A DNA stretch of 64,000 bases. Origin: a virus. The DNA lies in IMG/VR virus record IMGVR_UViG_3300008108_005458, positions 1 to 64,000 of that record. One strand, 5' to 3'. Shown piece after piece: positions 28,437 to 34,248 of this stretch. Each line of letters starts with the position of its first letter. The stretch's first letter is position 1. Below the pieces are notes generated by a model. The model did not search any database. It had not been told where the DNA came from and was given only the letters and a program-made list of their open reading frames with translations. Made by a program: the position numbers and the translations under genes.

Positions 28437-30335
28437 TTAGTTTAGTTTTATTGTTTTATTTGTTTTAATATCATTTTGTGTTCTTAAAATACCGTAGTAT
28501 GTACCAGGTATAACATTAGTTAAATCAACTGGATAAAGATATTTACCTTTATACATTTTACCACTAAAAACTGTGTGTACTAATTTGCCGCTCGCATCGT
28601 AAAACCCAACGTTTATTTCACCATCTTCTGGTACACTAAAACTAACAAGAGCTAAACCTTCTGTTGGATTAGGTGACACAATTATTTCACAATCTTTTGT
28701 TGTTACAGCACCGCCATTAATTCTGAATATTTTAACAACACCATTTGTTGGTGTAATTCTCAAATCAGTTGCGTTTGCATCACCAGCATATTTTCTTATA
28801 ACATATAAAGGGCTATTATTCCAAGTACTTTGTGGTGATAAGGCTGTAAATTGTAACGTTAAAACAATATCCCCATCATTAGCCAAATATTCGTTTCTAC
28901 TCATATCAGCGCCAGCCCACTCAACGATACCATTATTTGGATTTAAAAATGACATCCAATTCATAAATTTTTCCTCTGTTTTAATACCTTTAAACTCTAA
29001 TAAAGAGTTATCATAGGCTAAAGCTAATTGAATTGAACCAACTTGGTCGCCTTGTGTTAAAACTTTCATTGGTACGTTTAATAAACTACCTTCAGTAATT
29101 TCGATTTTAGGTAAATTAATTTCGATTGTAGCGGTTGGAAAATCGTACTCAACAGTTTCATCGATAATGTATTGAGGTGTCTTACTAGGGTTTAAGATCT
29201 CAATAGGAATTGTACGAGCCATATGGAAACCAGTACCGTTTGCATCACCACCACCTAATACATAGAATGTTACTGAGTCTGGCTGACCAGCGATAATATC
29301 AAATGTTAAATTAGTTACACCAGCAATAGTTGATGTGTAGTTAGTTGAAGACCCGTTAATGGTATTATATTGTGAAACTGTAAAGAATCTAACATCCTGA
29401 ACAGAGTTTGGCCACACTGAGAATCTACCCGCTAAACGACCATAGATAGCCGATACGTCAGCGATTGTAATACCGTAAGAACCGTTCACGTCAGAAGCGT
29501 AGAAATCAAATCCAGCTGGGGTTTCTTCACCTATAACAAATTTATTAACCTTTTGTGCATCGGCAACAGATACTGTGTTACCCACAGCCATTGTATCACC
29601 TTTAACGTATAAGTGAGCATCCCAATAAGTTGTATCTAAGATTTCATCGAAGGCAAAATAACCAGTAATGTCAGTTGTATCAAGTTTAACCTGAGTCCAG
29701 GCACCCGTTGATGTTTTAGGTCTTTTTTCTAAAGCAATTGTGATATTTTTAGAGCCAGAACCAGTTACGTTTGTAAATCTACCATGGTATTTTAATCTAT
29801 TCATTTTGAACTCACCACCATAACTGTGTAAAGATAAGGTTGTATCAATACCAGCTATTGTTGACGCATATGAGGGAAACGTTAAAGTACCAGTCACCTT
29901 TAAACTATCAATACTAGTTAAAGCTTGGAAAGCGGTTGCAGCTTGGTGAAAGAATTTGATCTGAAATGCCGCACCGTTAGCGTATGTAAAAGAGTTGTTC
30001 GTACCTGTATAAGCTAACGTAACGGTGATGTTACCATTTACCGAATCCGCAACATATTGCATATACTGATCAGAAGTACTGTACAATAAAGATACGATTG
30101 GTTTTGCACCACCAAAAGCCACTTTGTCGTAGAACACACGGAACTGTAAACCAGCGATTTTAGTCGTTGTTGTGTTGTCATAGTAAAGGTTAGCTAAAGT
30201 GAAACCTTGTGACTGCGGACCAACATTGTAAGAAGAGTCAACGATAACCCAATTACCACTCGATGGTGCAGTTGTTTGTGCATAGCCCGTAATGGCTAAT
30301 AACGCCAGCACTAGCGTTAAAAATAAATTTTTCAT
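28437..30335 (-). CDS. Secreted cohesin/dockerin protein with T9SS sorting domain
   Basis: 632 aa from the ATG at 30335 (MKNLFLTLVLALLAITGYAQ, signal peptide). An N-terminal cohesin-like beta-domain (about 20-150), then a dockerin-like module SDVNGSYGITIADVSAIYGR (about 280) followed by FFTVSQYNTING, then a second cohesin-like domain (about 415-530, VGSIQLALAYDNSLLEFKG), and at the C-terminus SPNPTEGLALVSF, FYDASGKLVHTV and PGTYYGIL, the type A C-terminal sorting domain of the Bacteroidota type IX secretion system. It should be exported by host machinery and attached to the cell surface. First gene of the envelope cassette. Confidence 0.85.
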   Translation of the reverse strand: MKNLFLTLVLALLAITGYAQTTAPSSGNWVIVDSSYNVGPQSQGFTLANLYYDNTTTTKIAGLQFRVFYDKVAFGGAKPIVSLLYSTSDQYMQYVADSVNGNITVTLAYTGTNNSFTYANGAAFQIKFFHQAATAFQALTSIDSLKVTGTLTFPSYASTIAGIDTTLSLHSYGGEFKMNRLKYHGRFTNVTGSGSKNITIALEKRPKTSTGAWTQVKLDTTDITGYFAFDEILDTTYWDAHLYVKGDTMAVGNTVSVADAQKVNKFVIGEETPAGFDFYASDVNGSYGITIADVSAIYGRLAGRFSVWPNSVQDVRFFTVSQYNTINGSSTNYTSTIAGVTNLTFDIIAGQPDSVTFYVLGGGDANGTGFHMARTIPIEILNPSKTPQYIIDETVEYDFPTATIEINLPKIEITEGSLLNVPMKVLTQGDQVGSIQLALAYDNSLLEFKGIKTEEKFMNWMSFLNPNNGIVEWAGADMSRNEYLANDGDIVLTLQFTALSPQSTWNNSPLYVIRKYAGDANATDLRITPTNGVVKIFRINGGAVTTKDCEIIVSPNPTEGLALVSFSVPEDGEINVGFYDASGKLVHTVFSGKMYKGKYLYPVDLTNVIPGTYYGILRTQNDIKTNKTIKLN

Positions 30336-30355
30336 GTTGTTTTGTTTTGATATTA

Positions 30356-30362
30356 ATAAATA
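30356..30362 (-). promoter_or_regulatory. Late-type TATTTAT motif of envelope cassette
   Basis: Sense CTATTTATTAATA, 20 nt upstream of the ATG at 30335; the only promoter candidate seen for the eight-gene minus cassette. Confidence 0.5.
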
Positions 30363-30439
30363 GATAAAAATCATAAAAAAACCATTTACTTTAAAAAAAA
30401 AAGTATTAAAACGGCCCTAACTTTTACCCGAAACCCTAA

Positions 30440-30461: not shown

Positions 30462-30704
30462 ATGAATAAAATTACTTTTGAATACTTGAAAGATTTAAAA
30501 AATCAGTTAACAACATTAGCTGATGAACAACAAGATAAGCTGGAAGAAATTGATAACGAAAATTTTAAAGATGATGTTTCTGAAAACATTTTTGGTAGAA
30601 TAGATGATGTTTTATATGAGATAGAGACTATAATGACTGATGTTGAAGAGGGTTATTATAGTAACGAAAAAAATGATCAAGATGATGATTTTGATGATTA
30701 TTAA
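30462..30704 (+). CDS. Small acidic coiled-coil protein
   Basis: 80 aa; heptad-like helix through residues 5-55 (LKDLKNQLTTLADEQQDKLE) and a highly acidic tail (DQDDDFDDY). No known family. The acidic C-terminus and late-type motif would fit a small scaffolding or anti-nucleic-acid protein, but this is only a suggestion. Confidence 0.6.
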   Translation: MNKITFEYLKDLKNQLTTLADEQQDKLEEIDNENFKDDVSENIFGRIDDVLYEIETIMTDVEEGYYSNEKNDQDDDFDDY

Positions 30705-30723
30705 AAATAATTTTTAAAAAAAC

Positions 30724-30754
30724 TTGTTTTTTCCAAAAAACTTTACTAATATTG
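30724..30754 (+). promoter_or_regulatory. Host-type promoter of translation operon
   Basis: TTG, 20-nt spacer, TAATATTG. The spacer (TTTTTTCC-AAAAAACTTTAC) resembles that of the promoter at 32168. Confidence 0.55.
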
Positions 30755-30759
30755 TAGCA

Positions 30760-30766
30760 TATTTAT
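30760..30766 (+). promoter_or_regulatory. Late-type TATTTAT motif before PTH2 gene
   Basis: CATATTTATAAAA, 7 nt upstream of the ATG at 30774, so this gene may be read both early and late. Confidence 0.4.
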
Positions 30767-30773
30767 AAAAGAT

Positions 30774-31118
30774 ATGAAAAACTACTAGATTAACAAATTA
30801 ATCATCGTAACCAGAAAGGACTTAGCACCAGGTTACCAAATTGCTCAAGCGAGTCACGCTTTAGCGCAATTCATGCTTGACTATCCTGATCAAGCTAATC
30901 AATGGAACAATAACTATCTTATCTGTTTGTCCGTTGAAAACGAAAATCAATTAAAAACTTTACTGGAAAAGATGTGTATGCATGACATACCCATATCTTA
31001 TTTTCTCGAACCAGATCTTGGTAACGAGATGACAGCTATTGCTTTTCAAGGAAGTGAAAAGGCGAGTAAATTAACTTCGTCTATACCATTGGCATTAAAA
31101 TCTTATAATAAACAATAA
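30774..31118 (+). CDS. PTH2-type peptidyl-tRNA hydrolase with in-frame TAG
   Basis: ATG AAA AAC TAC TAG ATT: codon 5 (30786-30788) is amber, then the frame is open to a TAA at 31118. Total 114 codons, the normal PTH2 length. After the TAG, NKLIIVTRKDLAPGYQIAQA and SHALAQF match the PTH2 N-terminus with its catalytic Lys/His region, and YFLEPDLGNEMTAIAFQG matches the C-terminal half. No ATG, GTG or TTG lies between the TAG and the ATG at 30873, which would remove the active site. Full function therefore needs amber readthrough, plausibly by the CUA tRNA at 32059. PTH2 frees tRNA from stalled peptidyl-tRNA. Confidence 0.8.
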
Positions 31119-31128
31119 ATCAACGATT

Positions 31129-31386
31129 ATGAAGTAGATTACAAAAAAACCAGAAGAGATCGTGTTTCACTTTAATAAGAAACATCTCGAAACCCCAACA
31201 ATCCCCATGTGGGTTGTGAAGTGTCGTGGCGACACCTATTATGTTAACCATATTGATGTATCCCCTGGTGTGGGGTTCTCAACAAAGGAAACTCCTGATA
31301 ACCCTCATACTAAAGGGAGTATAAAATTCAAGGCCAACTTGATGATTGAGGAACAAAATAACATAATTAACGCTAAAATTTATTAA
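31129..31386 (+). CDS. Conserved phage protein with in-frame TAG
   Basis: ATG AAG TAG ATT: codon 3 (31135-31137) is amber, after which 82 codons are open (ITKKPEEIVFHFNKKH, DTYYVNHIDVS, FSTKETPDNPHTKGSIKFK). The last segment looks like a small conserved protein of T4-like phages. A GTG at 31162 is an alternative start that would lose the ITKKPEE segment. Both TAG codons are followed by ATTA. It lies 10 nt after the PTH2 gene and 2 nt before the next, in an operon leading into the tRNA array. Confidence 0.7.
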
Positions 31387-31778: not shown

Positions 31779-31919
31779 TGTTGTGTGACGAAATTGGTAT
31801 ACGTGCTGGTCAGTACCCAAAAGAGTGTAGAATGGGGGAAACTGGCGGACATACTACAGACACGAGTAGTAGGAGATTAGGTCTTTAAATCCATGTGGGT
31901 TCGAATCCCACCACAACAG
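31779..31919 (+). tRNA. Oversized tRNA-Leu-like element, 141 nt
   Basis: Acceptor strands TGTTGTG and CACAACA pair, and the T arm (GTGGG-TTCGAAT-CCCAC) is perfect. Between them lie two D-arm-like segments (TGACGAAATTGGTATACG and GGGGGAAACTGGCGGAC) and about 50 nt more than a type II tRNA. I cannot assign an anticodon. It may be a tRNA with an insertion, a fusion of two tRNA genes, or a remnant. Confidence 0.4.
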
Positions 31920-31920
31920 C

Positions 31921-31980
31921 GCACCAACATAAGGTTGGAACCTCAAGGCTACGTAGAGGATAATGGTTAACGTAGCAAAT
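31921..31980 (+). ncRNA. Inter-tRNA spacer with possible pseudoknot
   Basis: A hairpin CCAAC/GTTGG (31924-31938) is followed by CCTC (31941), GCTACG (31948), GAGG (31956) and CGTAGC (31971). The pairs CCTC-GAGG and GCTACG-CGTAGC interleave as an H-type pseudoknot. Confidence 0.4.
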
Positions 31981-32051
31981 GGTTGGATGACCGAGAGAAT
32001 AGGTAAAAATCCGCAAGATTTTTTACGGTGGTTTGAATCCATCTCCAACCT
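31981..32051 (+). tRNA. tRNA-like, possible Cys (GCA)
   Basis: Acceptor GGTTGGA/TCCAACC, discriminator T as in tRNA-Cys, D stem ACC/GGT, T stem GGTGG/CCATC. The anticodon stem AAAAT/ATTTT holds CCGCAAG, placing GCA at 34-36. Position 33 is C instead of U, and the D loop lacks the GG pair, so it may be degenerate. A better tRNA-Cys lies at 32668. Confidence 0.45.
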
Positions 32052-32058
32052 CTAAAAT

Positions 32059-32133
32059 GGCTCTATGGTGTAGCGGCAACATAGGAGACTCTAAATCTCA
32101 CAGTCACGGGTTCGAACCCCGTTAGGGCCACCA
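32059..32133 (+). tRNA. Amber suppressor tRNA (anticodon CUA)
   Basis: 75 nt including an encoded CCA. Acceptor GGCTCTA/TAGGGCC with discriminator A, U8, A14, D arm GTG/CAT, T arm ACGGG-TTCGAAC-CCCGT. Anticodon arm GGAGA-CTCTAAA-TCTCA has a G-A mismatch at 27-43 but four good pairs; the 7-nt loop has U33 and A37, giving anticodon CUA, which reads UAG. The charged amino acid cannot be read from sequence. Two genes upstream in the same operon carry early in-frame TAG codons. TAG is also used as an ordinary stop at 16553, 48416 and 51225, so suppression is probably partial. Confidence 0.8.
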
Positions 32134-32167
32134 AAAAATAAAAAAAATAAAATTTTTTTGAAAAAAC

Positions 32168-32198
32168 TTGTTTTTTTCAGAAACTTTGCTTAATTTTG
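32168..32198 (+). promoter_or_regulatory. Host-type promoter of short transcription unit
   Basis: TTG, 20-nt spacer, TAATTTTG. Predicted transcript start near 32204. Confidence 0.7.
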
Positions 32199-32223
32199 TA
32201 CTAATTATAACAATAACATAAAA

Positions 32224-32322
32224 ATGAAAAATATGAACCTTCATATCGCAGTGATTAAACCGATGGCAGTGTGCCAGTGGTATCCTCGTGCCGTATCAGG
32301 TTCAGACCAAGTATTTTCATGA
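32224..32322 (+). CDS. Possible 32-aa peptide
   Basis: Starts MKNMNLHIAVIKPMAVCQW and ends SGSDQVFS with a TGA. It is the only ORF in the short unit and begins about 20 nt after the predicted transcript start. No family is recognised; it could equally be a chance ORF in a structured RNA. Confidence 0.35.
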   Translation: MKNMNLHIAVIKPMAVCQWYPRAVSGSDQVFS

Positions 32323-32355
32323 TGTTATAGAAATAAAACTAAAACTAAGAAAACA

Positions 32356-32391
32356 CAAAGCCCTGAACCTACAAGTTCAGGGTTTTTTTTT
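32356..32391 (+). terminator. Strong intrinsic terminator
   Basis: CCCTGAAC/GTTCAGGG stem followed by nine T. Confidence 0.9.
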
Positions 32392-32424
32392 GTAGTTCTT
32401 TGACGTATTGGTAATTTTAAAAAT

Positions 32425-32499
32425 AGTGTAGTTGGCCAATTGGTAGGCCGCCTCATTTGGGATGAGGACATAGTGCAGGTTCGAGTCCTGTCTACGCTA
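32425..32499 (+). tRNA. tRNA-Pro (UGG)
   Basis: Acceptor AGTGTAG/CTACGCT, D stem GGCC/GGCC, anticodon arm CCTCA-TTTGGGA-TGAGG with G37 as usual for tRNA-Pro, T loop TTCGAGT. Confidence 0.85.
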
Positions 32500-32506
32500 C
32501 TTAATT

Positions 32507-32582
32507 CAGGATATGGGGGAGTCAGGTCGTCCCTACCTGCCTTGGACGCAGGGGATCGCTGGTTCGAATCCAGCTATCCTGA
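32507..32582 (+). tRNA. tRNA, anticodon UGG (Pro)
   Basis: Acceptor CAGGATA/TATCCTG with C1-G72 typical of Pro, discriminator A, anticodon arm CCTGC-CTTGGAC-GCAGG, T arm GCTGG/CCAGC. A37 instead of G37 and an extra base before the anticodon stem are odd for a second tRNA-Pro. Confidence 0.65.
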
Positions 32583-32588
32583 CACAAT

Positions 32589-32662
32589 GTCTTCGTAGCT
32601 CAGTTGGTTAGAGCACCTCACTTTTAATGAGGGAGTCACAGGTTCGAGTCCTGTCGGGGACA
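32589..32662 (+). tRNA. tRNA-Lys (UUU)
   Basis: Acceptor GTCTTCG/CGGGGAC, anticodon arm CCTCA-CTTTTAA-TGAGG, T loop TTCGAGT, discriminator A. Confidence 0.92.
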
Positions 32663-32667
32663 CAAAC

Positions 32668-32737
32668 GTATAAGTTGATCGTGGTGGTCGGTTGGTCTGC
32701 AAAACCAACGGTGTTGGTTCGATTCCAACCTTATACT
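32668..32737 (+). tRNA. tRNA-Cys (GCA)
   Basis: Acceptor GTATAAG/CTTATAC, discriminator T as required for Cys, anticodon arm TTGGT-CTGCAAA-ACCAA, T arm GTTGG/CCAAC. Confidence 0.9.
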
Positions 32738-32746
32738 CAAATATAC

Positions 32747-32817
32747 ACGGATATGGTGAAATGGTATCATAATGGTCTCCAAAACCACAGTTCAGGGTTC
32801 GAATCCTTGTATCCGTG
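32747..32817 (+). tRNA. tRNA-Trp (CCA)
   Basis: Acceptor ACGGATA/TATCCGT with discriminator G, anticodon loop CTCCAAA in TGGT/ACCA stem, T loop TTCGAAT. Confidence 0.9.
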
Positions 32818-32823
32818 CTAAAT

Positions 32824-32903
32824 GCCCTTGTAGGCGAATGGTATAGCCGCTGGTCTTAGAAACCAGAGCGAAAGCATTGCAGGTTCGAGTCCTGCCAGGG
32901 GTA
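32824..32903 (+). tRNA. tRNA-Leu (UAG)
   Basis: Acceptor GCCCTTG/CAGGGGT, D stem GGC/GCC, anticodon arm CTGGT-CTTAGAA-ACCAG, variable stem AGCGAAAGCA, T arm GCAGG/CCTGC. Confidence 0.88.
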
Positions 32904-32908
32904 CACAT

Positions 32909-32981
32909 GCACCTTTAGCTCAGTTGGTAGAGCGCTGCCCTTACATGGCAGATGTCATAGGTTCGAGTCCTATAGGGTGTA
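32909..32981 (+). tRNA. tRNA-Val (UAC)
   Basis: Acceptor GCACCTT/AGGGTGT, anticodon arm CTGCC-CTTACAT-GGCAG, T loop TTCGAGT. Confidence 0.92.
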
Positions 32982-32999
32982 CAAAGGTTGATTGGGGAA

Positions 33000-33115
33000 T
33001 GATCACATCAATAGTTCGAGAGTGAATACTGACTGGTGTGATCGGAGTTTGCAGGTATTCACCTAAGTAATGCCGATCGTAAAAGAGGATGTCCACTGAA
33101 CCATCTTCCTCTTTC
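33000..33115 (+). ncRNA. Structured RNA with strong H-type pseudoknot
   Basis: Stem 1 GATCACATCA (33001-33010) pairs with TGGTGTGATC (33034-33043), 10 bp with one G-U. Stem 2 GTGAATAC (33022-33029) pairs perfectly with GTATTCAC (33055-33062). The strands interleave, so both can form only as a pseudoknot. A further hairpin AGAGGA/TCCTCT follows (33084-33112). It fills the gap between tRNA-Val and tRNA-Tyr and has no ORF of its own. Confidence 0.6.
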
Positions 33116-33122
33116 CTAACTT

Positions 33123-33204
33123 GCCAGTATCGCATAGCGGCAATTGCAGCGGATTGTAAACCCGCTCTCATTCGAGTTCGGTGGTTCGAGTCCACCTGCT
33201 GGCA
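33123..33204 (+). tRNA. tRNA-Tyr (GUA)
   Basis: Type II tRNA: acceptor GCCAGTA/TGCTGGC, anticodon loop TTGTAAA, long variable arm, T arm GGTGG/CCACC, discriminator A. Confidence 0.9.
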
Positions 33205-33216
33205 CTATTTATTAAT

Positions 33217-33678
33217 ATGAGGAAACTAATATTAATGATCGTAATGGTTTTATCCACAACGATTTGTAAATCACAAATTGTGATAGATAAAGCTGGGGAT
33301 GGTTGGGATCTAAGAGCTGATAGCGCTTTGGTAATTATTAAGCAAACAGATACCACCGCATATAAACTCGTATTACGAGTTTGTAATAAAATAACTTTTT
33401 GGTCTGGGAACTACTCAACAAACGAGGGTTCTAAAGATACAAAAGGAAGTATAATAATATCATCGACAGATGCTAGGGCTAAATCCTTAAACAATCTAGC
33501 GGCTGTTATTGTGCACGAATCTTTACACCTTTATCTTAGATATAGGGGTGTTCAAGAATCACCAAGAGAAGAAATACTCTGTTACTCATATGAGTATGAC
33601 TTCTTAAGGAAAATACCAAATGTTGAACAATATCTGTTAGACCATTGTCTAAGACAGATAAACCTTCGACAAAATTAA
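33217..33678 (+). CDS. Secreted HExxH protein inside tRNA array
   Basis: 153 aa from the ATG at 33217, which places a signal peptide at the N-terminus (MRKLILMIVMVLSTTICKSQ); the frame upstream belongs to tRNA-Tyr. The central AAVIVHESLHLYLRYRG carries HESLH, the zinc-metallopeptidase HExxH pattern, and a downstream Glu-rich helix (SPREEILCYSYEYDF) could supply a third ligand, as in M-type peptidases. Its stop is 1 nt before tRNA-Ala. A peptidase role in the periplasm is inferred from motif and export signal only. Confidence 0.72.
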   Translation: MRKLILMIVMVLSTTICKSQIVIDKAGDGWDLRADSALVIIKQTDTTAYKLVLRVCNKITFWSGNYSTNEGSKDTKGSIIISSTDARAKSLNNLAAVIVHESLHLYLRYRGVQESPREEILCYSYEYDFLRKIPNVEQYLLDHCLRQINLRQN

Positions 33679-33679
33679 T

Positions 33680-33752
33680 GGGGTTATAGCTCAATTGGCT
33701 GAGCGCTTCCCTTGCAAGGAAGAGGATGTGGGTTCGAGTCCCATTAGCTCCA
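33680..33752 (+). tRNA. tRNA-Ala (UGC)
   Basis: Acceptor GGGGTTA/TAGCTCC includes the G3-U70 identity pair; anticodon arm CTTCC-CTTGCAA-GGAAG. Confidence 0.93.
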
Positions 33753-33758
33753 CTATAT

Positions 33759-33829
33759 TGTCCTTTGGTGTAATGGCAGCACATCTGGTTTTGAGCCAGA
33801 GAATTCAGGTTCGAGTCCTGAAGGGACAA
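33759..33829 (+). tRNA. tRNA-Gln (UUG)
   Basis: Acceptor TGTCCTT/AGGGACA with U1-A72, anticodon arm TCTGG-TTTTGAG-CCAGA, T arm TCAGG/CCTGA. Confidence 0.9.
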
Positions 33830-33835
33830 CCAAAT

Positions 33836-33910
33836 GGCGAGATAGCTCAGAGGAAGAGCATTCGGCTCATATCCGAAAGGTCGGGATTTCGAAATTCCCT
33901 CTCGCTACCA
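33836..33910 (+). tRNA. tRNA-Met (CAU), encoded CCA
   Basis: Acceptor GGCGAGA/TCTCGCT, anticodon arm TTCGG-CTCATAT-CCGAA, encoded ACCA end. Whether it is elongator Met, initiator or a lysidine-modified Ile tRNA cannot be decided; no three-GC initiator stem is seen. Confidence 0.85.
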
Positions 33911-33915
33911 TACAT

Positions 33916-33989
33916 GGTGTCTGTAGCTCAATCGGGAGAGCACTTGATTGTGATTCAAGAGGTAGTGGGATCGAAACCCACCAGTCACC
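33916..33989 (+). tRNA. tRNA-His (GUG)
   Basis: Acceptor GTGTCTG/CAGTCAC with one T-T mismatch, G at -1 and C73 as expected for His, anticodon arm CTTGA-TTGTGAT-TCAAG. Confidence 0.88.
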
Positions 33990-33992
33990 CAA

Positions 33993-34107
33993 AATAGGTT
34001 ACCCCGTTTGTTCCGTCAGGGGTTATAAAATAGATATCAGTTAACGGAACCCATGATGGAGACCCTGCCAAGAAAGTGGGTGAAAGATATTGTAACAATG
34101 ACCTATT
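33993..34107 (+). ncRNA. Structured RNA closed by a 7-bp stem, with pseudoknot
   Basis: AATAGGT (33993) pairs with ACCTATT (34101). Inside, ACCCC (34001) pairs with GGGGT (34019) and GTTCCGT (34010) with ACGGAAC (34044), interleaved as a pseudoknot. ATATC (34034) can pair with GATAT (34086). It occupies the gap between tRNA-His and tRNA-Arg. The order hairpin, loop pairing, A-rich linker, third stem recalls small self-cleaving ribozymes such as pistol, but I cannot align conserved positions. Confidence 0.55.
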
Positions 34108-34111
34108 ATTT

Positions 34112-34185
34112 GCCTTCATAGCTCAATGGATTAGAGCGTTTCGCTACGAACGAAAAGGTTGGGAGTTCGAGTCTCTCTGAAGGTA
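34112..34185 (+). tRNA. tRNA-Arg (ACG)
   Basis: Acceptor GCCTTCA/TGAAGGT, anticodon arm TTTCG-CTACGAA-CGAAA, T arm GGGAG/CTCTC. Reading all CGN codons would need A34 to I34 editing by host TadA. Confidence 0.9.
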
Positions 34186-34248
34186 CAATAAACCTGTTTT
34201 TGTAACGATAAACCAAACAAGTTTATTGAGCAAAATCTAATTTATCGT
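34186..34248 (+). ncRNA. Pseudoknot spacer RNA
   Basis: CAATAAAC (34186-34193), the first bases after tRNA-Arg, pairs with GTTTATTG (34221-34228). ACGATAAA (34205-34212) pairs with TTTATCGT (34241-34248), which runs into the tRNA-Ile acceptor. Two perfect 8-bp stems interleave; the second competes with tRNA-Ile folding. Confidence 0.55.

Follow-up and report, generated by a model that had tools for sequence, protein, structure and literature searches.

The tRNA cluster of phage T4 contains two annotated small stable RNAs, C and D (species 1 and 2 RNA), which are 139 and 119 nucleotides (nt) long and lie 1-6 nt from their neighbours. GOLLD and ROOL are further structured phage RNAs, often found near tRNA islands, and ROOL has multiple pseudoknots (PMC12286853). 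All of them are standing puzzles of function. Here we describe an RNA of ~133 nt, the Val-Tyr RNA, which fills the gap between the tRNA-Val and tRNA-Tyr genes (32985-33117) in the tRNA array of an uncultivated virus. Coordinates are those of the window, that is, the whole 64,000-nt stretch analysed, itself part of a 67.7-kb virus record (IMGVR_UViG_3300008108_005458). This gap is a conserved structured RNA and not a spacer. It belongs to a family that is absent from Rfam and present in the tRNA clusters of many large phages, and is a new phage RNA gene.

Like T4 RNAs C and D, the Val-Tyr RNA is situated in a tRNA array, on the same strand as the tRNAs and nearly abutting them. However, the 3' end of RNA C is a tRNA T-arm, which the Val-Tyr RNA lacks, and the covariance model built for the Val-Tyr RNA (R1) found no match in L150, the record that holds rnaC and rnaD. 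An oversized tRNA-Leu-like element of the same window (31780-31918) is nearer to RNA C in its plan (~139 nt, tRNA-like 3' end), although this is a resemblance only. Many GOLLD members are longer than 800 nt, and both GOLLD and ROOL have Rfam profiles, whereas no Rfam model matches the Val-Tyr RNA. The antitoxin RNA ToxI is a tandem repeat of ~36 nt. Type III antitoxin RNAs of this kind share with the Val-Tyr RNA the form of a small H-type pseudoknot, and a phage can reportedly carry mimics of them (PMC3475682); they lack the Val-Tyr scaffold, and no repeat array was seen at the Val-Tyr element. Theta ribozymes likewise combine an interleaved pseudoknot with a position beside phage tRNAs (PMC10879173), but the Val-Tyr RNA has no room for their P3 helix, lacks an invariant catalytic C and does not always lie close behind a tRNA 3' end.

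A pseudoknot mounted on a three-helix scaffold

ARAGORN places 16 tRNA genes, all on the plus strand, between 31981 and 34320, one of them with a CTA (amber) anticodon; most are spaced by 3-8 nt, with no element like the Val-Tyr RNA between them. The first-pass annotation had read interleaved stem pairs, that is, pseudoknots, in four of the wider gaps and a fifth within the Leu-like element. For each gap, the top interleaved stem pair was compared with those of 300 dinucleotide shuffles, which gave p=0.003 for the Val-Tyr pair (33001-33062). Since a p-value from a single sequence is unable to decide such cases, related phages with the same array were fetched through the proteins encoded inside and just downstream of it; array gaps were found to be gained and lost cleanly among them. 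The Val-Tyr RNA was then described from 40 distinct sequences of type 1 (alignment A2, column 1 being window position 32983), as follows.

32909..32982, plus strand: tRNA-Val (TAC), upstream neighbour (ARAGORN)
32985..33117, plus strand: Val-Tyr RNA, whole conserved element (40-sequence alignment A2; covariance model R1)
32985..32987, plus strand: 5' strand of P1, AGG, pairing with CCT at 33115-33117 (invariant in 40/40 sequences)
32989..32995, plus strand: 5' strand of P2, pairing with 33073-33079 (alignment A2)
33001..33010, plus strand: 5' strand of pseudoknot stem S1, pairing with 33034-33043 (alignment A2)
33022..33029, plus strand: 5' strand of pseudoknot stem S2, pairing with 33055-33062 (alignment A2)
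33082..33114, plus strand: P3 hairpin with a 19-nt loop (33082-33088 with 33108-33114; alignment A2)
33123..33205, plus strand: tRNA-Tyr (GTA), downstream neighbour (ARAGORN)

The fold consists of a scaffold of three helices, namely the short P1, the P2 of 7 base pairs (bp) and the P3 hairpin, with an H-type pseudoknot (S1/S2) mounted on P2. Covariation was seen in every helix, both pseudoknot stems included, except in the 3-bp P1, which pairs but is invariant and so carries no covariation information. P2 is paired in 100% of the alignment cells, with two-sided changes at 2 pairs; S1 has compensatory changes at 6 of its 10 pairs, one of which appears as UA, GC, CG and AU; and P3 has them at 4 of 7 pairs, again with four pair types at one pair. 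S2, also paired in 100% of cells, shows compensatory changes at 4 of 8 pairs, with 43 cells of two-sided change against 14.5 after shuffling (reached in 0 of 500 shuffles) and only 26-64% pairing when the stem was slid along the alignment. For the element as a whole, 98% of cells are paired, as against 38-54% in slid controls, and 16 pairs carry two-sided changes, amounting to 175 cells against 49 in shuffled alignments (0/500). These shuffle controls ignore the relatedness of the sequences; nevertheless, the variety of pair types in S1 and P3 argues for repeated changes. The covariation among homologous spacers that the first-pass annotation had named as a check is therefore present for this pseudoknot, in 40 distinct sequences.

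The unpaired parts are conserved as well. The loop of P3 is largely constant (GTCCAC..ACCATCTT), and the scaffold is nearly so, reading AGGTTGATTGG on its 5' side and GCCAATC.TAAAA, the P3 hairpin and TTTCCT on its 3' side. An earlier register of the 3' hairpin (columns 106-109/120-123) was dropped, as columns 107-108 vary without compensation; the register 100-106/126-132 fits better.

Distribution, subtypes and neighbours

Homologues were sought with patterns that fix loop letters and leave the stems almost wholly free. The first (TAGTTCGAGAG-N7-TGAC-N10-GGAG) matched 38 viral contigs, and a second, resting on different letters (GTTGATNNGGGAATG...CGGAG), matched at least 119 stretches; when the 3' domain was also required, at least 81 occurrences with 75 distinct sequences were retained, all on uncultivated phage contigs of up to 321 kb. 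Within the window the only match to model R1 is the Val-Tyr element itself, and each of the 10 phage records searched whole (10/10, contigs up to 321 kb) holds one copy. The exception to single copy is a tandem second copy in some other phages, subtype A', in which the scaffold is unchanged and the insert different. The insert of the A' copy in L187 again has the order stem1-stem2-stem1'-stem2' (GTATCC, TTTAACTGT, GGGTAC, GCGGTTAGA; p=0.010), while the equivalent pairing in the A' insert of L155 is not significant. Single-sequence tests of the subtypes were mixed in general, being significant for L153, L183 and A' of L187 and not for L158, L195, L156 and A' of L155. Type-2 members use other S2 pairs (for example, TGGTAGT/ACTACCA, TGATGAT/ATCATCA and TGTTGGT/ACCAACA). 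The scaffold is thus constant, and the pseudoknot domain is exchanged between copies. The length of this domain spans 53-69 nt in single-nucleotide steps, which argues that it is not coding.

Among the 81 copies listed, 72 have a tRNA on the same strand within 12 nt, and 50 have one on both sides. In the first set of matches the distance to the end of the upstream tRNA is typically 2-3 nt, and that to the start of the next tRNA ~5 nt. The commonest upstream neighbours are Trp, Val, Asn and Lys, with Arg also found; a downstream tRNA within 12 nt is tRNA-Tyr in 52 of the 69 listed copies that have one, others being Val, Thr, His and Asn. As the identity of the neighbours varies, the Val-Tyr RNA is not part of one particular tRNA. 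The remaining nine listed copies have no tRNA within 12 nt on either side, and for several the distance is hundreds of nt, so that the RNA behaves as a gene of its own. Two of the phages that bear it also carry transfer-messenger RNA (tmRNA) genes (L162, 11947-12343; L219, 10165-10581).

Comparison with known RNA families

Rfam 15, whose families include pistol, hatchet, twister, HDV, GOLLD, ROOL, tmRNA and others, has no match in 32983-33122 either at gathering score or at expectation values (E) up to 10, and none of the subtypes matches at gathering score. A tRNA with its acceptor stem, anticodon arm and T-arm is not called in 32983-33122 by ARAGORN or Rfam. The element has no blastn match in 50,697 deposited phages, nor in plasmids. 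The loop pattern gave 72 matches in 84,980 bacterial and archaeal genomes, and those listed after filtering by context and base composition look like chance; 394 genomes from a single phylum, searched by covariance without a positive control, gave no match. A published description was not found in a literature search whose coverage lacked many journals.

The first-pass annotation had also raised kinship with HDV-like theta, pistol, hatchet or twister ribozymes, and the absence of any Rfam match at E of 10 speaks against all of them. An HDV-like fold of the element fails on two further grounds: only 4 nt (columns 48-51) separate the 5' strand of S2 from the 3' strand of S1 in 40/40 type-1 sequences, where P3 would have to be placed, and columns 62-72 (GGAGTT...) hold no invariant C that could be the catalytic one, which in HDV-like ribozymes lies in the junction before the 3' strand of P2. 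The tRNA-associated theta ribozymes are defined as those that cleave no more than 5 nt from the 3' end of a tRNA (PMC10879173). Many copies of the Val-Tyr RNA do begin 0-5 nt past a tRNA, but 28 of the 81 listed have none ending within 12 nt upstream.

Possible functions of the Val-Tyr RNA

In our judgement the Val-Tyr RNA is probably a small trans-acting phage RNA gene, excised from the transcript of the tRNAs, for which T4 RNAs C and D, GOLLD and ROOL offer a comparison. It would be transcribed together with the tRNAs as one stretch of a long RNA and released by the enzymes that normally process tRNAs, its 5' end being set by 3' maturation of the upstream tRNA and its 3' end by the RNase P cut at the downstream tRNA. 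Once freed, it might act in trans as a stable noncoding RNA, and its conserved loops may bind a conserved target, for example, a host RNA, the ribosome or an enzyme. We infer co-transcription, enzymatic release and action in trans because the RNA nearly abuts the tRNAs, its neighbours change, some copies lie apart from any tRNA and a record has one copy. Several points weigh against this proposal. Transcription, excision and stability of the RNA all rest on inference; the searches fixed some loop letters, so that invariance at those letters is partly selected, while the stems were almost wholly free; and the preference for a downstream tRNA-Tyr could mean a role in cis, a bias that shared ancestry would explain equally well.

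Such a role in cis, in which the fold guides or blocks nucleases so that both neighbouring tRNAs mature properly, would agree with the tight packing between tRNAs in those 50 listed copies and with the frequent place before tRNA-Tyr. It was one of the functions suggested in the first-pass annotation, but we regard it as unlikely: the nine copies mentioned stand apart from tRNAs, and each record searched whole has one copy although the arrays hold many tRNAs; moreover, the neighbouring tRNAs change, and most tRNAs of the window's array are 3-8 nt apart without any such element. A self-cleaving ribozyme of a new class, serving to separate tRNAs, would likewise account for the compact pseudoknot, the strongly conserved unpaired nucleotides and the location beside tRNA ends, and the theta ribozymes offer a published precedent beside phage tRNAs (PMC10879173). 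The missing Rfam ribozyme match, the missing P3 position and catalytic C of HDV and the 28 listed copies with no tRNA 3' end close upstream make this improbable, perhaps a shade more so than the processing element.

The combination of a constant scaffold with exchanged pseudoknot domains resembles diversification against varied opponents, as might be expected of an anti-defence decoy that mimics the target of an RNA-dependent host immunity, such as a tRNA-cutting nuclease or a pseudoknot-binding type III toxin. Escape of phage PhiTE from ToxIN through RNA mimicry has been published (PMC3475682). Yet an arms race would not be expected to leave most of the RNA as strongly conserved as it is, and we found neither a toxin nor an antitoxin repeat nor any link to defence; we regard a decoy as unlikely, about as much so as the processing element. 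Chance pairing in AT-rich spacers, with no functional RNA behind it, does hold for some of the pairings in this region (the one in the Leu-like element, p=0.87, and a repeat artefact before tRNA-Ile), but for the Val-Tyr element it is excluded by the compensatory changes in both pseudoknot stems and has a negligible probability. A bolder extension of the trans-acting RNA gene, which we put forward only tentatively, is a new functional class in which exchangeable pseudoknot modules on a constant scaffold are released from phage tRNA transcripts and serve as a catalyst, or as an inhibitor or decoy of a conserved host factor of translation, tRNA processing or immunity; the arrays would then be libraries of such RNAs.

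The Val-Tyr RNA joins the T4 RNAs, GOLLD and ROOL among these puzzles. Its family is compact, covariation proves its pseudoknot, constant modules stand beside variable ones, homologues are numerous, and a covariance model is available. At its size the RNA is open to chemical probing by selective 2'-hydroxyl acylation analysed by primer extension (SHAPE), to cryo-electron microscopy, to crystallography and to direct assays of processing and binding.

Other structured RNAs in and around the array

That the gaps of this array hold structured RNAs, as the first-pass annotation proposed, is borne out; that a single family fills them is not, since model R1 finds only the Val-Tyr element, and the His-Arg, Arg-Ile and Leu-like elements each have relatives of their own. 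Each of the four gaps does contain the interleaved pairing read there; the one in the Val-Tyr gap is confirmed by covariation, and the one before tRNA-Ile is better explained as a nested hairpin. The features concerned are the following.

31780..31918, plus strand: oversized tRNA-Leu-like RNA (acceptor, D-arm, T-arm and conserved insert; homologues in L068 and L250)
31941..31976, plus strand: possible small pseudoknot, CCTC/GAGG with GCTACG(T)/(A)CGTAGC
33993..34107, plus strand: His-Arg RNA (alignment A4)
33993-33999/34101-34107, plus strand: its 7-bp closing stem (alignment A4)
34001-34005/34019-34023, plus strand: its stem S1 (alignment A4)
34010-34016/34044-34050, plus strand: its stem S2, forming the pseudoknot (alignment A4)
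34033-34038/34086-34091, plus strand: its inner stem (alignment A4)
34062-34065/34078-34081, plus strand: its hairpin (alignment A4)
34188..34245, plus strand: Arg-Ile nested hairpin (stems 34188-34192/34241-34245, 34198-34203/34230-34235 and 34206-34213/34221-34228)

The His-Arg element is a second structured RNA, unrelated to the Val-Tyr RNA. It is present in the window and in L010 and L011, while in L007, L009 and L014 the gap measures only 5-6 nt. Compensatory changes affect its inner stem (GATATC/GATATT to AACATC/GATGTT) and its hairpin (ACCC/GGGT to ACCT/AGGT). S1 and S2 are invariant across 5 sequences, which leaves the pseudoknot conserved and neither proven nor refuted; the best interleaved pair of the gap (34001-34050), whose second stem differs from that read by the first-pass annotation, had p=0.07. 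A diverged relative in the Asn-Met gap of L245 has other closing and inner stems and keeps GTTCCGT and ACGGAAC. Apart from L245, pattern searches revealed little wider spread of this element or of the possible pseudoknot at 31941-31976; the latter is above chance (p=0.010), with no relative beyond near-identical strains in the pattern search.

In the Arg-Ile gap (34186-34248) the interleaved pair reached p=0.003 only because four similar arms repeat. As a pseudoknot it shows no compensatory change and has broken cells in 7 sequences; the nested hairpin, which is also the minimum-energy fold, accounts for them better, with C-G replaced by G-C at one pair. A proposed competition with the tRNA-Ile acceptor relied on that pseudoknot and loses its basis with it.

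The Leu-like element, for which neither ARAGORN nor Rfam calls a tRNA in the window, has homologues in L068 (8745-8882, 99%) and L250 (2970-3115). In L250 the acceptor and T-arm have changed with compensation, as has the insert hairpin (TACTAC/GTAGTA to ATCAC/GTGGT). The pseudoknot suggested within this element is not above chance (p=0.87, for a best pair that differs in part from the suggested one), and its stem CTACA/TGTAG is mismatched in L250, where the rival hairpin has its compensatory change.

An additional 103-nt element occupies the Leu-Val gap of L010 and L011. The Phe-Lys gap (L034, L155) and the Phe-His gap (L167, L218), 74-79 nt long, contain an element directly at the end of tRNA-Phe with interleaved TTAACGG/CCGTTAA and CCCCAC/GTGGGG, a candidate theta-like ribozyme. 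Among 518 distinct tRNA gaps of 40-700 nt, taken from the arrays of L032-L246, there are many recurrent sequence families; some are short open reading frames or missed tRNAs, and several resemble further structured RNAs with closing stems of ~7 bp. Phage tRNA arrays of this group carry many recurrent noncoding elements that tRNA finders pass over, so that it is wrong to treat these gaps as empty spacer.

Neighbouring genes and signals

Inside the array, 33217-33678 encodes a 153-residue protein with an HEXXH motif (HESLH) that is conserved in relatives; a longer reading (33181-33678) has no Pfam or PHROG match. Upstream of the array, two adjacent genes (30774-31118 and 31129-31386) have a single in-frame TAG each, at codon 5 and codon 3, respectively, and the first encodes the peptidyl-tRNA hydrolase PTH2 if its TAG is read through. 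L068, which like the window possesses a CTA suppressor tRNA, retains both TAGs; these TAGs and the suppressor tRNA possibly form an amber gate.

A 68-nt AT-rich segment resembling a terminator or promoter is repeated with 79% identity at 30703-30768 and 32143-32210. The region before the tRNA-Pro genes (32224-32411) contains a short open reading frame of 32 residues, a hairpin like that of an intrinsic terminator (about 32358-32391) and a sequence that we take to be boxA-like (GTTCTTTGACGTATTGG, 32395-32411), and letters resembling boxA recur in several of the related array gaps; the tRNA operon may be subject to attenuation and antitermination here. Further upstream, the 645-residue protein encoded by 28437-30374 combines a cohesin domain with a weak Por-type secretion tail. 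The tRNAs of the window resemble those of Cellulophaga phages, among others, and, judging by this similarity and the weak Por-type sorting domain, the host is probably a member of Bacteroidota.

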